The notes under the pieces: model-generated
The model's input: the letters and a program-made list of their open reading frames with translations, nothing else
The model's database searches: none
What the model was told of the DNA's origin: nothing
Source: Collibacillus ludicampi
GTDB taxonomy: Bacteria; Bacillota; Bacilli; Tumebacillales; BOQE01
NCBI RefSeq assembly: GCF_023705585.1
Contig: NZ_BOQE01000001.1
Span: 3,876,710 to 3,940,709 of the forward strand
Length of the DNA stretch: 64,000 nt
Direction: 5' to 3'
Position numbers and translations under genes: made by a program
Shown: positions 21,570 to 27,626 of the stretch, one piece after another
How the letters are laid out: every line of letters begins with the position of its first letter
Position numbering within the stretch: the stretch's first letter is position 1

Positions 21570-21839
21570 ATGGCTCTGCACCAGATACTTTTCGACGAAA
21601 CGGAAGCGACGACCACCCGGTACATCGGCTTCTTTGGGGAAACCACCCGGTTTGACTTAATGATTACAACCACTGAACATTTTTATGGAAAAAAAGTCGT
21701 TACCAATCTGCAAACTGGACGCACCGCCATTTTAAATGAAAAAGACGCCGCCAACGTTCCCTACTTGTTGGAAACGTTCCAGTTACATACGGAAGAGGAA
21801 GCCAATGAATTATCGGAATTCCTTCTCTCGATCCTTTGA
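21570..21839 (+). CDS. DUF3055 protein, copy 1
   Basis: An 89-residue Bacillales protein of unknown function. Family marks are ILFDETEATTTRYIGF, RFDLMITTTEHFYGKKVV, a central NLQTGR and an acidic C-terminal helix. It is paralogous to the protein at 42276-42569 (shared ILFDE-E-TRTRxIGF, RFDxM, EHFxGK-VV). AGGATG-type site precedes the ATG. A 12-base string in its leader is also found upstream of the paralog. Probably cytoplasmic. Confidence 0.78.
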   Translation: MALHQILFDETEATTTRYIGFFGETTRFDLMITTTEHFYGKKVVTNLQTGRTAILNEKDAANVPYLLETFQLHTEEEANELSEFLLSIL

Positions 21840-21876
21840 ACGATTCGCGTGAGGAAACAACCTCTTTAAGAAGGAA

Positions 21877-21906
21877 AGAAGGTATGAATCGAACTTCATA
21901 CCTTCT
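21877..21906. terminator. Hairpin between convergent genes
   Basis: AGAAGGTATGAA and TTCATACCTTCT form a perfect 12 bp stem around a six-base loop. On the minus strand TTCCTTCTT follows. It probably serves both the DUF3055 gene and the 175-residue gene converging on it. Confidence 0.65.
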
Positions 21907-21911
21907 CTCGC

Positions 21912-22439
21912 TTACTCCAGCTCACCTCGGTTGCTGAAACTGAAAAAATCGGCGTACTGATTCATGAATGTTTCAGTTACTTCGCGATGTTCCTCTTCAT
22001 CTTCAACCACTTGAAGCCCATATCCGTTTCCGTCATCAATCACGCGGAAAAAGATCAACTCGGGTGGTTGGTCGCTCTCATTTTTTTCATAATAGACCCC
22101 ATACGGCTGTTCACCGATCACAAAATAGACACCGAGTGCGTATTTCCCTTCACGTTCCCCTTCTTTTACCGTCACGAAGAATATATTTTCGATCACATGC
22201 AAAACCTGTTCAACAAACAAGTCCCCCGGATAATCGAGAACAAGTGTATCTTCCTCTTGTCTCTCGATGCGGTAGATCTCCTTTTTCAAATCTCGATTCC
22301 AGGTGATGAGCAACAAATGAACATCTTCAAAGAAAAACGCGTAATAGTTGGCTTTCGCGAATGTAATTTTCGGCTGCATCAGCGATCTCCCATCCAAAAA
22401 TTTGATGCACGGGCCAAGTCTGCCCGTTCCTTTATCCAT
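21912..22439 (-). CDS. DUF1292-like protein (175 residues)
   Basis: The N-terminal half is a beta-rich region of unknown type (KITFAKANYYAFFFEDVHLLLITW). The C-terminal half resembles DUF1292: PELIFFRVIDDGNGYGLQVV then EDEEEHREVTETFMNQY, comparable with the protein at 24658-24957. AGAGGATG precedes the ATG at 22439. No membrane segment. Function unknown. Confidence 0.6.
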   Translation of the reverse strand: MDKGTGRLGPCIKFLDGRSLMQPKITFAKANYYAFFFEDVHLLLITWNRDLKKEIYRIERQEEDTLVLDYPGDLFVEQVLHVIENIFFVTVKEGEREGKYALGVYFVIGEQPYGVYYEKNESDQPPELIFFRVIDDGNGYGLQVVEDEEEHREVTETFMNQYADFFSFSNRGELE

Positions 22440-22459
22440 GATTCATCCTCTGTTATCGC

Positions 22460-22582
22460 TTAATCGTGATGCCAAGCCTTATATTGTTTTCTCACAGCCG
22501 CTTCCACTTTCTCCCGCGAAAGTGATGCACACATAAACAACAGGAAGAAAAAACCCGCAACAGCAGCCAACATTCCAATCAT
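22460..22582 (-). CDS. Small single-pass membrane protein (40 residues)
   Basis: From the ATG at 22582 the peptide is MIGMLAAVAGFFFLLFMCAS followed by a charged helical tail (SREKVEAAVRKQYKAWHHD). One membrane helix occupies residues 2-18. AAGGGGG lies eight bases before the ATG, so longer upstream extensions are unlikely. A CodY-like box lies just upstream. It precedes the DUF1292-like gene by 20 bases and may be cotranscribed. No family recognised. Confidence 0.55.
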   Translation of the reverse strand: MIGMLAAVAGFFFLLFMCASLSREKVEAAVRKQYKAWHHD

Positions 22583-22602
22583 CAAGAAAGCCCCCTTTCT
22601 AT

Positions 22603-22617
22603 ATTTTTCAGAAAATT
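22603..22617. promoter_or_regulatory. CodY-type box
   Basis: ATTTTTCAGAAAATT matches the CodY consensus AATTTTCWGAAAATT at 14 of 15 positions. It lies about 20 bases before the 40-residue membrane protein gene. Such A/T-rich motifs also occur by chance, so function is unproven. Confidence 0.45.
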
Positions 22618-22726
22618 TTGATTTAATAAATTGTGCCCTCGAATGAAGCTTTTTTATTTGCATCTAGGATAAATTCATGCCAAACATGCGTCAAGTATTC
22701 CCAATTTGTATTGCAAGTCCTTTTCA

Positions 22727-23530
22727 TCATGCAAGATCTTCTATATGGATATGTACTTCAATTTGCGGCAGACCAGATATATTGCGCACTTCCTTCTGAA
22801 TCTGTTTCGCGAGGGAAGTCATCATATCGTATACGCGTTTGTCGTATCGAACAATCAAATGGATCATGACGTGAAGCCCCATTTTCGCGTCTACTTCCGT
22901 AGAAACATGTTTCACTACATAAGGATGAGCCCGTACGATGCGAGCAACGATCGCTTTAAAAACGCGATCGTGAATAAAGATACCTCCCTGCGCAAATCGC
23001 GGATGAACGATTGTCATTTCGAACGGTTTCTGTTTTCGTTTACGGCTTCCCTCTGTCAAAATCGCCCGGACATCCCGAATCCATTTCCCCAATCCGGCTT
23101 CCTCCACCTGGATTCTTGGCAGGGGTATCGCATGATTTCCCGCACTTCTAAACTTACGCGCGATTTCGATATCGTTCTCAGACGCAATGTCCTCGATATA
23201 GATGCGTTCGCTCACGGAAGGCAATGAAAGGGCAGCGGCGATGCGGTCGACCATCTTGTCCGAGATACCGAGTACCAGGATTTTGTCAATGTGATGATTC
23301 TCTATCGCCGCACGTACTTCCTTCGCGTGTTCATCGTTCAAGAAAATCGCCCTTTTTACCGACGCCATCTTTGTAAGCTCGTATTTTCCCGAATATCCCG
23401 CCGCGTATTGGCCGTCAACAATGAATAATCCGTCGTCAATAATCGCTCGGATCCCTCGTTCCCTGGCGATTTGTAATGCATGATGACTTTTTCCCGTACC
23501 GCTTTCCCCGATCAATGCGTATACCTTCAT
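22727..23530 (-). CDS. P-loop NTPase fused to an Asp23/Gls24-like domain
   Basis: Two parts in 267 residues. Residues 1-150 are a P-loop domain: YALIGESGTGKSHHAL (Walker A) and ILVLGISDKMVDRIAAAL further on. Residues 165-267 resemble the Asp23/Gls24 fold: GIFIHDRVFKAIVARIVRAHPYV, then VHVMIHLIVRYDKR and IQKEVRNISGLPQIEVHIHIEDLA. The start overlaps the stop of the preceding Asp23 gene by four bases, so the two proteins are probably made together and interact. Asp23 proteins of other firmicutes line the membrane or act in envelope stress. The NTP-driven role here is unknown. Confidence 0.7.
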   Translation of the reverse strand: MKVYALIGESGTGKSHHALQIARERGIRAIIDDGLFIVDGQYAAGYSGKYELTKMASVKRAIFLNDEHAKEVRAAIENHHIDKILVLGISDKMVDRIAAALSLPSVSERIYIEDIASENDIEIARKFRSAGNHAIPLPRIQVEEAGLGKWIRDVRAILTEGSRKRKQKPFEMTIVHPRFAQGGIFIHDRVFKAIVARIVRAHPYVVKHVSTEVDAKMGLHVMIHLIVRYDKRVYDMMTSLAKQIQKEVRNISGLPQIEVHIHIEDLA

Positions 23531-23832
23531 GATTTCATACCTCCAGTTCCTCGGGAATGATCGATTCCCGCCACGAAAACGTCTATGGAACGAACGTTTA
23601 ATCGTGTAACCTGCTTCATCTCTTCTCCAATTTTTTTACGGATTGTTTTAACGATTTCAGGAATTGATGAACCATAACAGATTGCCACAGACAACTCAAT
23701 TTCTATCTCTTGATTATTCCGCCTGACAGACACCGTTCTCTTAATTTTGGCTTCCTTAATTTCCGTGAAGACACGTTGAATGACGCTTCGGATCGCTTTG
23801 TTCGAGAAAGTGACACACGTTTTCGCATTCAT
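23527..23832 (-). CDS. Asp23/Gls24-family protein
   Basis: A 101-residue stand-alone Asp23/Gls24 (DUF322) domain: VTFSNKAIRSVIQRVFTEI, then IELSVAICYGSSIPEIVKTI and the C-terminal VTRLNVRSIDVFVAGI strand. It is the first gene of a two-gene unit whose second gene carries a P-loop fused to the same kind of domain, with an ATGA overlap. This suggests a hetero-oligomer. Divergent from a small membrane protein gene at 23938. Confidence 0.72.
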   Translation of the reverse strand: MNAKTCVTFSNKAIRSVIQRVFTEIKEAKIKRTVSVRRNNQEIEIELSVAICYGSSIPEIVKTIRKKIGEEMKQVTRLNVRSIDVFVAGIDHSRGTGGMKS

Positions 23833-23937
23833 CTGTGAATCTCCCGTCCCTTATATTTTTTCGAACGAATGGTCGAATCGTATGTTTTACGTTATACTAA
23901 AATTAACTTCCAAAGACCGTTTCAAAGGAGGAAAAGC

Positions 23938-24135
23938 ATGAGACGCGAAACCCGTTATTTCTTTTTTACACTGATCTTTGTTCTTATTATTGCAGGTCTT
24001 GTTTCACAAAACTATACATTTCTAGGTATAACTTTTCTCCTCGGAATTTTGATCGGTGGGATCGTCGATACGTACGATAACCGTCGTGATGAGAAACATA
24101 AACATGTGAACCGGAATTTTAATTACCATCATTAA
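23938..24135 (+). CDS. Small two-helix membrane protein (65 residues)
   Basis: Two hydrophobic segments (FFFTLIFVLIIAGLVS and FLGITFLLGILIGGIV) joined by a short NYTF turn, followed by a charged, His-rich tail (RRDEKHKHVNRNFNYHH). AAAGGAGG precedes the ATG at 23938. A strong terminator follows, so it is monocistronic. It is divergent from the Asp23/P-loop pair. No family recognised. Confidence 0.65.
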   Translation: MRRETRYFFFTLIFVLIIAGLVSQNYTFLGITFLLGILIGGIVDTYDNRRDEKHKHVNRNFNYHH

Positions 24136-24146
24136 GCGCATATGTA

Positions 24147-24182
24147 AGCCCCCGTCTCTTCTATAACGGGGGCTTTGTGTTA
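24147..24182 (+). terminator. Intrinsic terminator
   Basis: AGCCCCCGT and ACGGGGGCT form a 9 bp stem around a ten-base loop, followed by TTGTGTT. It ends the 65-residue membrane protein transcript. Confidence 0.75.
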
Positions 24183-24220
24183 TACTTTCGGTAGAAAGTA
24201 ACAGGAAGGAGAATGTCATC

Positions 24221-24577
24221 GTGTTAGATCGCAATGAAATTTGGGCACAAGCGGCTGAACTCGGTCAATTGATTTCCGAATCTCCAGTCGTTCTCGCATA
24301 TAAGGAAGCGAAAGAGACGATGGAAAGTCATCCGGAGATCAAACATCTTCTTTCCAAATTGCGTGACATGCAGGAGCAATATGAGCGACTCTCCACATAC
24401 AGTACGGGTCCTCATTTGAAATCCCTTGAAGAAAGTATGAAAGAAACGATCGCTAAACTGGATGAATATCCGGAAGTGCAAAATTTCCGCAAGAGAACGC
24501 ATGAAGTGGATCAGCTGCTAAAAGCGGTCACTGATGTACTTTCCACCAGTGTAACTGAACGTGTGAGCCAGGAGTGA
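24221..24577 (+). CDS. YlbF/YmcA-family protein
   Basis: A 118-residue all-helical protein of the YlbF/YmcA (DUF964) family, whose B. subtilis members form the Y-complex that acts with RNase Y in mRNA maturation and affects competence, biofilm and sporulation. Visible signs are LGQLISESPVVLAYKEAKETM and EYPEVQNFRKRTHEVDQLL. The GTG at 24221 follows AAGGAG. Whether it equals YlbF, YmcA or the third paralog YheA cannot be decided by eye. Cytoplasmic. Confidence 0.78.
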   Translation: MLDRNEIWAQAAELGQLISESPVVLAYKEAKETMESHPEIKHLLSKLRDMQEQYERLSTYSTGPHLKSLEESMKETIAKLDEYPEVQNFRKRTHEVDQLLKAVTDVLSTSVTERVSQE

Positions 24578-24993: not shown

Positions 24994-25087
24994 TGGCGGA
25001 GTGAGAGGGATTCGAACCCTCGATACGGGTTATCCCCGTATACTCGCTTAGCAGGCGAGCGCCTTCGACCTACTCGGCCATCACTCC
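24994..25087 (-). tRNA. tRNA-Ser(GCU)
   Basis: The 94-base minus-strand sequence starts GGAGTGATGGCCGAGT, has a long variable arm, an anticodon loop CTGCTAA (anticodon GCT), the TTCGAATCC T-loop and an encoded CCA end. It reads AGC/AGU codons. Last of four tandem tRNA genes. Confidence 0.95.
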
Positions 25088-25095
25088 TAAACGAG

Positions 25096-25171
25096 TGGAG
25101 CCACCTGCCGGGCTCGAACCGGCGACCTGCTCATTACGAGTGAGCCGCTCTGCCAACTGAGCTAAGGTGGC
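25096..25171 (-). tRNA. tRNA-Thr(CGU)
   Basis: The 76-base minus-strand cloverleaf starts GCCACCTTAGCTCAGTTGG, has anticodon CGT in loop CTCGTAA, TTCGAGCC T-loop, and ends AGGTGGC-T-CCA with CCA encoded. It reads ACG codons. Confidence 0.95.
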
Positions 25172-25183
25172 AGATGGATAACA

Positions 25184-25276
25184 TGGCGGAGAGAGAGGGA
25201 TTCGAACCCTCGAGGCGCGTTATCCACGCCTACACGATTTCCAATCGTGCTCCTTCGACCACTCGGACATCTCTCC
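25184..25276 (-). tRNA. tRNA-Ser(GGA)
   Basis: The 93-base minus-strand sequence starts GGAGAGATGTCCGAGTGG, has anticodon GGA in loop TTGGAAA, a long variable arm typical of serine tRNAs, and an encoded CCA. It reads UCC/UCU codons. Confidence 0.95.
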
Positions 25277-25281
25277 AAACA

Positions 25282-25356
25282 TGGTGCGCCTACCAGGAAT
25301 CGAACCTGGGCACCCGGTTCCGGAGACCGGCGCTCTATCCTCTGAGCTATAGGCGC
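25282..25356 (-). tRNA. tRNA-Arg(CCG)
   Basis: The 75-base minus-strand cloverleaf starts GCGCCTATAGCTCAGAGG, has anticodon CCG in loop CTCCGGA, and ends TAGGCGC-A-CCA. It reads CGG codons and is the first tRNA of the transcript. Confidence 0.95.
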
Positions 25357-25525: not shown

Positions 25526-26269
25526 TCATACTCGTACCGTTTGGCTGTATTTTTCAATGATCTGCTGATGTGCACGCATTTCCCAAGTATCATCAAGCGG
25601 AATGAGTACCGGATCTTCCGTATGACGATACAGGGCTAAGCGCAGGAGAAAATCTGCAAAATGGGGATTTTTCGATAAGAGCGGGCCGTGCATATACGTA
25701 CCGAAAACCGTCCCTTGTGCCACGCCCTCGAACCGATCTTCTCCGTTATTCCCGAAACCGTTTGTCATCACCGCTAGCGGTTTAACCCCTTCACCCAGGT
25801 ACGTCCTTCCCGAATGATTCTCATAGCCGACGATCGTGTTCCCTGCAAGCCCTTCGATTTGCAAGTTCCCGATCGTATTCCCGACCAATCGCTTCGTTCC
25901 ACCGACCGTAAAGAAGTCGACGAGACCGAGACCTTCGATCCTTTTTCCCCCGATCGTTTCAAAATAGCGTCCTAACAACTGATAGCTGCCACAAATCGTG
26001 AGAATCACCGTTCCCTCGGCGATCGCTTTTTCAAAAGCGGAACGTCTTCTCAATAAATCATCAGCGACTATCGATTGCTCTCTGTCCTCTCCCCCGCCGG
26101 AGAATAGAATATCATATTCGCTTAAGTCGGCCGTATCGCCGATCGAGATCGCTTTGACCTCGACGTCAAATCCCCGCCACTCGGCTCTCCTCTTTAGTAC
26201 GGTTACATTTCCACGATCGCTGTACACCTCAAGCAGATCCGGGTACAGATGCGCGATTTTTAGCTTCAA
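25526..26269 (-). CDS. gatD: Lipid II isoglutaminyl synthase glutaminase subunit GatD
   Basis: Class I glutamine amidotransferase (CobB/CobQ-like) that supplies ammonia to MurT for amidation of D-Glu in lipid II. The nucleophile elbow is ILTICGSYQLLGRYFE and the His is in GTYMHGPLLSKNP; the substrate loop GYENHSGRTYLG is typical. I chose the TTG at 26269, eight bases after AGGGAAGG, giving 247 residues, close to the family's usual length. The start lies inside the 3' end of murT (41-base overlap), implying translational coupling. Confidence 0.9.
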   Translation of the reverse strand: MKLKIAHLYPDLLEVYSDRGNVTVLKRRAEWRGFDVEVKAISIGDTADLSEYDILFSGGGEDREQSIVADDLLRRRSAFEKAIAEGTVILTICGSYQLLGRYFETIGGKRIEGLGLVDFFTVGGTKRLVGNTIGNLQIEGLAGNTIVGYENHSGRTYLGEGVKPLAVMTNGFGNNGEDRFEGVAQGTVFGTYMHGPLLSKNPHFADFLLRLALYRHTEDPVLIPLDDTWEMRAHQQIIEKYSQTVRV

Positions 26270-27626
26270 CTTCAATCCTTCCCTTCGCAAGCAAATGATC
26301 TCTGATCGCATAGAGTGATGTATACGTTGAAAGGATGTATAATAAATGTCCCTCAGGAAGTTCAGCGAGCGCATGATCGACTGTGCGGATATCGCCTTCC
26401 ATCACTTCCGTTATATCACCGAATCCGGCGTATTTTAAACGCACGCCCATATCGAATGCGCGCGTCCCCGTCGCCCAAATCCGTTGCAAACGGCTCATCT
26501 TGCGGAGTTTCTCGATATTCGTGTCCCAAATCCACGATACATCCGTACCGTCAGCATAATGGTCATTCAGAACGACGACGAGGTGAGCGGGACGCGTTTC
26601 CTGTTGGACTACCGACAAAACCTGATTAAAACCGGTTGGATTCTTAACAAGCGTCAACATAACATGTTTCCCTGCAATATTCATTCTCTCCATACGTCCC
26701 AAGCCGGTCGCCATAGACGACATTTCTTCCCGCAGAACCTCTCGCTTCACGCCCATGAGATTCGCTGCCGTAATCGCCGCCAAGGCGTTGTAAACGTTAT
26801 ACAGCGCAGGAGAATTGATGCGGCCAACATCCCCTTTTAATTCAAAGAGAATGCCCTCTTCATGCAGACGCACGCGTTCCGCCGCATAATCCGGATTCGC
26901 ACGCTGAAAACCGCATGTCAAGCATCTATAAAACCCCAATTGCCCATAATGATATTGCGTATAGTGGAGGGGAGAACTGCATGTCCGACAAAACTTTCCG
27001 TCTTTCACCTCGTTATGATCCTCCGCAGAGAAATCACTTGAATTAATTCCGTACCAGATCACACGTTTTCCTTCCGGAGCGATGGAAGAAACGAGAGGGT
27101 CATCCGCGTTCAGGATGAGCATCGTATGATCGGGTGCTTTTTTCAAAGCGTTTCCTACCAATTCTACAACCGTGTCCACTTCCCCATAGCGATCCATTTG
27201 ATCGCGGAAAAAGTTTGTCACGACCACAGCATTCGGATGGAGCGGTTGTATGACTTTTCCGATCGTTGCTTCATCGACTTCCAGCACGACGGCTTGTCCA
27301 TCTGCCGCTTTGCCTTTGTAGCCATCGAGGAATGTTGTTACAATCCCTTGAATCAAATTGGCGCCAAGGCTGTTGGAAATGATCGCACGTCCATCTTTGC
27401 GTAAAAAATGGGTTAACAGGTTACTCGTCGTGGTTTTCCCGTTCGTTCCTGTGATTAAGACGACATTACCGTTCAGTTTGCTGCCAAAATGCGAGAGGAT
27501 ATCCGGACAAATGCGCAGGGCAATCGCTCCCGGCAGTGTCGTTCCCTTCCGTCCAGTCAAACGTAAAATCTGTTTGACAAACTTGGAAACGTTGATGGCC
27601 AGAAAAAAACGTAAACGATTCAACAA
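26229..27626 (-). CDS. murT: Lipid II isoglutaminyl synthase subunit MurT
   Basis: Mur-ligase-like ATPase that activates the D-Glu alpha-carboxylate of lipid II for amidation. It has the P-loop ITGTNGKTTTSNLL, LEVDEATIGKVI and the MurT-specific Cys4 zinc ribbon between CRTCSSPLHY and FYRCLTCGF. Length 465 fits. The start is TTG at 27626 or the adjacent TTG at 27623, after GGAGGGA. It forms an operon with gatD. Confidence 0.92.
   Translation of the reverse strand: MLNRLRFFLAINVSKFVKQILRLTGRKGTTLPGAIALRICPDILSHFGSKLNGNVVLITGTNGKTTTSNLLTHFLRKDGRAIISNSLGANLIQGIVTTFLDGYKGKAADGQAVVLEVDEATIGKVIQPLHPNAVVVTNFFRDQMDRYGEVDTVVELVGNALKKAPDHTMLILNADDPLVSSIAPEGKRVIWYGINSSDFSAEDHNEVKDGKFCRTCSSPLHYTQYHYGQLGFYRCLTCGFQRANPDYAAERVRLHEEGILFELKGDVGRINSPALYNVYNALAAITAANLMGVKREVLREEMSSMATGLGRMERMNIAGKHVMLTLVKNPTGFNQVLSVVQQETRPAHLVVVLNDHYADGTDVSWIWDTNIEKLRKMSRLQRIWATGTRAFDMGVRLKYAGFGDITEVMEGDIRTVDHALAELPEGHLLYILSTYTSLYAIRDHLLAKGRIEVEAKNRASVPGSA

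Follow-up and report, generated by a model that had tools for sequence, protein, structure and literature searches.

Proteins of the Asp23 family are among the most abundant in some Gram-positive bacteria, and their molecular function is still unclear (PMC6954212, PMC5437119). In Staphylococcus aureus, Asp23 is anchored to the membrane by AmaP; the protein forms filaments in vitro, and rings when AmaP is absent (PMC6954212). YqhY, an Asp23 protein of Bacillus subtilis, restrains acetyl-CoA carboxylase (PMC5437119), so regulatory roles of the Asp23 domain have precedent. The controls of our PF03780 search confirmed that Asp23 domains of the plain kind occur throughout Bacillota, and located them in Thermus, Deinobacterium and Thermotoga as well.

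The locus considered here lies in a 64,000-nucleotide stretch of the Collibacillus ludicampi genome (the window; contig NZ_BOQE01000001.1, positions 3,876,710 to 3,940,709), and all coordinates below count from its first letter. A first-pass annotation, made from the DNA letters and their open reading frames (ORFs), had described a P-loop NTPase fused to an Asp23 domain and encoded with a second Asp23 protein through a four-base overlap. Both ORFs are present, and the unit comprises the following features:

22727..23530, minus strand: NTPase-Asp23 fusion of 267 aa (ORF, PF03780 match, 66-sequence alignment, AlphaFold model)
23527..23832, minus strand: stand-alone Asp23 protein of 101 aa (PF03780, E = 3.3e-13), without a counterpart adjoining other members of the family
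23539..23544, minus strand: GGAGGT, a Shine-Dalgarno-like site of the NTPase gene within the asp23 ORF (sequence reading)
23111..23530, minus strand: P-loop domain, approximately residues 1-140 of the fusion (column identity, AlphaFold, Foldseek)
23486..23509, minus strand: Walker A motif GESGTGKS, residues 8-15 (66-sequence alignment)
23429..23437, minus strand: invariant DDG, residues 32-34, closing strand 2 of the model (alignment, DSSP of the model)
23036..23086, minus strand: low-confidence linker, residues 149-165 (pLDDT below 50)
22733..22963, minus strand: C-terminal Asp23 domain, residues 190-266, AmaP-like in the matched profile region (PF03780, NF033218, CDF fold)

The 101-aa ORF is upstream, and its overlap with the NTPase gene consists of the 4 bp ATGA at 23527-23530. 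GGAGGT is positioned 8 nt ahead of the NTPase ATG, and together the overlap and this internal site give the pair the geometry of translational coupling.

An Asp23-like C-terminal domain had been proposed for the larger protein, and a Pfam profile search bore this out: residues 190-266 matched PF03780 with 33.0 bits (E = 8.8e-8, cut-off 28), and the 101-aa protein matched the same model with 50.4 bits (cut-off 28). When the 66 divergent homologues of the fusion were scanned singly, 53 matched PF03780, and judged on sequence the Asp23 match in the fusion is far beyond chance. The NCBIfam model for AmaP, NF033218, was matched by 45 of the 66 members, all under its cut-off, and the window fusion scored only 17.6 bits (cut-off 55). 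The N-terminal transmembrane anchor of AmaP is absent, the N-terminus of the fusion being a soluble P-loop domain in the model. The Asp23 domain is folded like the C-terminal domain of CDF transporters; comparison with MamB gave Z 11.1 and an rmsd of 1.9 Å over 77 residues at 16% identity. This is a likeness of common fold and not of common function.

Three further Asp23 matches occur in the host genome: a standard Asp23 gene with an AmaP-like gene beside it (C1, 87-88 kb), and another standard copy at 3143 kb that we call YqhY-like by analogy only. A tree built from Asp23 domains had one group each for the fusion domains, Asp23, YqhY-like proteins and AmaP, that of the fusion domains with modest support (73/79). 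The 101-aa protein sat on a long branch; it was placed with the fusion domains at 79/27, and a placement with Asp23 was not rejected (p-AU 0.43). The best match of the small protein outside its own gene was the C-terminal domain of a fusion protein. It may have arisen by duplication of a fusion domain or from a standard Asp23, the tree being compatible with both.

The N-terminal domain is the most conserved part of the fusion. Mean column identity among the 66 sequences was 57% over the N-terminal 146 residues alone, compared with 41% over the whole protein, and 19 of the 20 invariant columns fell within the first 136 residues (G8, S10, G11, G13, K14, S15, D32, D33, G34, G45, K49, A61, L85, S90, M93, L101, R128, H133 and P136, followed by P177). 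The window protein departed from the 90%-conserved columns at three positions only (A48G, A57S and T89I). GESGTGKS agrees with the Walker A pattern GxxxxGK[ST], and the invariance of Walker A, DDG, K49, S90, M93, R128, H133 and P136 indicates that the NTP site is strongly constrained. On this basis the P-loop domain very probably binds a nucleotide. The full-length AlphaFold model, built with the family alignment, had a mean pLDDT of 87.2 and consisted of a confident P-loop domain and a confident Asp23 domain joined by the low-confidence linker; folded alone, the P-loop domain reached a pLDDT of 88.9.

No specific Pfam or NCBIfam model was matched by the N-terminal domain in a scan of the 66 members. 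A Foldseek search with this domain alone returned cytidylate and gluconate kinases as top matches (probability 0.97-1.00, E about 2e-3, TM about 0.4). VIA structural Z scores of 5-7 (maximum 7.0) were scattered over many P-loop kinases, and hhalign aligned it to Escherichia coli GntK with a probability of 94, over 61 columns only, mostly in the P-loop half. The NCBIfam gluconate kinase model TIGR01313 did not match the window protein and matched one of the 66 members only (0.0065), and a search with it across the phylum for gluconate kinases recovered no true members. Two other candidates were set aside. A search by sequence for a solved homologue returned P-loop matches only, the best to an ABC transporter (E = 3.5e-4). 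The GTPase Era, retrieved by Foldseek with the whole model (E = 2e-5), superposed with a TM of about 0.2 and an rmsd above 17 Å; this match is an artefact that arises because the two domains are free to orient. As modelled, the domain is a small kinase-like P-loop domain that is not assignable to one family. Since the folds and profile searches fit no single enzyme family, it could be a metabolite kinase or a protein kinase.

The fusion is not a novelty of the window. In an even sample of the phylum, 167 of 398 genomes (116 of 267 genera) had full-length homologues, as did 63 of 299 genomes (29 of 118 genera) within class Bacilli, the census covering Bacillota genomes. All carriers but one had a single copy. 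Only 9 of 41 near relatives carried the fusion, so the family has been lost or gained repeatedly. A single-sequence pattern scan had yielded one relative only, such patterns missing relatives that are 35-40% identical. The fusion is a member of a common, unnamed and apparently unstudied Bacillota family, and what is new is an unnamed conserved architecture, not a local system. The expectation that the fusion lacks a characterised ortholog held: a literature search of papers readable without subscription found none on an NTPase-Asp23 fusion, and neither Pfam nor NCBIfam includes a model of it. A named record from Monoglobus pectinilyticus bears no label beyond "Asp23/Gls24 family envelope stress response protein"; the family has stayed without a name since automated annotation recognises the Asp23 tail alone. 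A role as a sporulation protein was rejected, since SpoIVA was as common in carriers (140 of 167) as in the genomes overall (336 of 398; hand count). In four genomes of one genus (G008, G055, G094 and G183; genus g20), the ORFs around the fusion measured 489-557 aa, compared with about 280 aa elsewhere; they possibly represent an extended variant or a mere long upstream open frame.

The pairing with a stand-alone Asp23 gene had a different distribution. A profile of the C-terminal domain, run against all ORFs of the sampled loci, detected no second Asp23 gene near other fusions, many of these loci being covered for only about 1.5 kb per side. This search of the DNA around other family members ruled out a conserved Asp23 partner. 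Absence of the gene beside all other sampled members implies that the fusion needs none nearby. So far the pair has been seen in this genome only, in a sample drawn from other genera and families. Three small ORFs flank the unit:

22460..22663, minus strand: 67-aa protein with one predicted hydrophobic segment, a possible third gene, after a 63-bp gap from the NTPase gene
21912..22439, minus strand: 175-aa protein, a possible fourth gene, with a sub-threshold DUF1292 match (20.6 bits, cut-off 24)
23938..24135, plus strand: 65-aa hydrophobic protein, divergent, an anchor candidate (ORF from an internal ATG)

Searches of Pfam and NCBIfam returned no family match for the 67-aa protein and nothing above cut-off for the 65-aa protein. 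The latter had been put forward as the membrane anchor of the pair. Its ORF exists, on the opposite strand, but in a comparison of 39 loci it was not a conserved neighbour; like the 67-aa and 175-aa ORFs downstream, it was a singleton, and nothing therefore ties any of the three to the family. In phyletic terms, the fusion proved to be widespread, whereas among the sampled loci the two-gene unit was seen in this genome only and the 23938 neighbour at this locus only. A promoter scan of 21700-24300 gave fewer sites than shuffled sequences. Farther along, the window contains an ordinary YlbF/YmcA family protein (24221-24577, plus strand; PF06133, 1.2e-19) and four tRNA genes for Ser, Thr, Ser and Arg (24994-25356, minus strand), over which spurious ORFs lie. 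At 25526-27626 (minus strand), a gene for a CobB/CobQ-like glutamine amidotransferase (PF07685) overlaps a gene that we take to be Mur-ligase-like, presumably the GatD/MurT arrangement for lipid II amidation.

Gene neighbourhoods of the fusion in other genomes were compared at 92 loci with 14 kb of context. The commonest neighbour was DnaD (cluster 1, PF07261 and PF21984; 24 of 92 loci), followed by an ATPase of IstB/DnaC type, consistent with the helicase loader DnaI (cluster 2; 21 loci). The dnaD gene was within two genes of the fusion in 20 of the 92 loci, against a chance expectation of about 0.15, although the binomial p-values for this linkage ignore the kinship of the genomes; the loader gene then followed within three genes in 20 loci. 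Two layouts recurred. In seven loci from four families (L056, L078, L079, L169, L174, L181 and L193), the fusion, dnaD and the loader were co-directional in that order, with gaps of -41 to 101 bp, and in several of these the rsmH-ftsL-pbp cluster came next. In eight loci (L064, L145, L153, L158, L163, L166, L167 and L199), dnaD and the loader diverged from a directly adjacent fusion, and more loci had this layout with trkA in between. The fusion and dnaD thus stay close in either orientation, which speaks for a functional link between them. Genes for an aminotransferase, a metallo-hydrolase and Lrp were likewise enriched near the fusion, with metF in part of the same neighbourhood, and retained synteny would thus explain part of the dnaD proximity. 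In some Bacilli, proBA-like genes (named by inspection) were nearby instead. The link was absent from the genome of the window, where dnaD is at 1.52 Mb, a dnaB-like gene at 3.62 Mb and the fusion at 3.90 Mb. As a whole, dnaD proximity hints at a link with replication, and in the relatives the genome context speaks for DnaD/DnaI no less than for the envelope.

The explanation that we consider best, while giving it somewhat less than even weight, is that the fusion is a nucleotide-dependent switch that docks on Asp23-family assemblies. The P-loop domain would bind a nucleotide and be connected through a flexible linker to the AmaP-type Asp23 domain at the C-terminus, which would dock on assemblies of Asp23-family proteins, whether homo- or hetero-oligomeric, at the inner face of the membrane; such docking on oligomers is suggested by the behaviour of Asp23 and AmaP in S. 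aureus. Binding or turnover of the nucleotide would control docking or recruit a second partner, and the adaptor could bring with it a kinase activity or, as the gene context suggests, the DnaD/DnaI machinery. In the window, the Asp23 gene with the four-base overlap would provide the C-terminal domain with a partner of its own, made at a constant ratio. Both the switch and this partner role are our inference. The first-pass annotation had interpreted the pair as an NTP-regulated Asp23 assembly; its observation is confirmed, and its interpretation, a reasonable inference, is partly supported. Against the switch, the N-terminal domain fits no single enzyme family, the conserved neighbours elsewhere are dnaD and a helicase loader, not envelope genes, and fusions in other sampled genomes do without an Asp23 gene beside them.

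In a rather unlikely but possible alternative, the N-terminal domain would be a genuine kinase of small molecules or nucleotides, resembling gluconate, cytidylate or adenylate kinases, with the Asp23 domain serving localisation or dimerisation. The Foldseek and GntK matches speak for such an enzyme, as do a DDG at the place of the GntK acidic motif and the conserved S90, R128 and H133 in later strands and helices, but the Foldseek E-values and VIA scores were modest and spread over many P-loop kinases, the GntK alignment was mostly P-loop, and no conserved metabolic operon surrounds the fusion gene. An HPr kinase-type protein kinase that phosphorylates Asp23-family proteins or another partner is most improbable. 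Hpr_kinase_C was matched with E = 0.036 in the window protein (14 bits, below the cut-off of 33.3) and 0.0076 in one of the 66 members, and the spacing from P-loop to acidic motif resembles that of HprK; against this, the sub-threshold matches span only about 30 P-loop residues, and other P-loop models, ABC and AAA among them, score at least as well.

The neighbourhood data raise a further alternative, which we regard as unlikely: the family would be an accessory of replication initiation, a nucleotide switch acting with DnaD and a DnaI-type loader, whose Asp23 domain would connect the primosome with the membrane or with Asp23 assemblies, chiefly in lineages that have only DnaD. Clostridioides difficile is without DnaB, and DnaD has been proposed to do both jobs there (PMC12548448), a case that fits this proposal together with the frequency, adjacency and double orientation of dnaD beside the fusion. 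Weighing against it, 67 of the 92 loci have no dnaD nearby, the related genomes are not independent, much of the proximity can be explained by retained synteny with the aminotransferase, metallo-hydrolase, Lrp and metF genes, and the genome of the window has both dnaD and a dnaB-like gene, each far from the fusion. A combined version, in which a nucleotide-switched protein links the DnaD-DnaI primosome to a membrane Asp23 layer and couples replication initiation to envelope state, the Asp23 partner having been added in this lineage, seems very unlikely. As for the partner gene itself, it is decidedly unlikely to be a chance or decaying neighbour without functional connection to the fusion: the restriction of the pair to one genome and the long branch and equivocal position of the 101-aa protein would agree with this, but the ORF is intact, its PF03780 match is well above cut-off, and the four-base overlap is accompanied by a Shine-Dalgarno site for the downstream gene.

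Whichever activity the P-loop domain has, a widespread and highly conserved protein of nucleotide-binding type with an Asp23 domain offers an enzymatic handle on the Asp23 family, and its recurrence near dnaD and the helicase loader provides a concrete, testable guess on function.

Among known systems, AmaP shares with the fusion a C-terminal Asp23-type domain, matched over the same partial profile region, and a gene beside an Asp23 gene, but it has N-terminal membrane helices and no P-loop, whereas the fusion has a P-loop. The Asp23/Gls24 family (Asp23, YloU and YqhY) is represented by the Asp23 domain in both window proteins; its known members are small and stand-alone, however, and the fusion domains stand apart from the Asp23, YqhY and AmaP clades, with modest support. 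The C-terminal domains of the CDF proteins MamB, MamM and YiiP have the fold of the fusion's Asp23 domain, but sequence identity is 8-16% and the fusion is without a transporter domain. Small P-loop kinases for gluconate, cytidylate and adenylate share the P-loop and the overall alpha/beta layout; the scores are weak, and the fusion differs in having an Asp23 tail and no confidently modelled lid domain. The motifs DDG...AGxSAK and GTSxxM are special to the fusion family when it is compared with these kinases.
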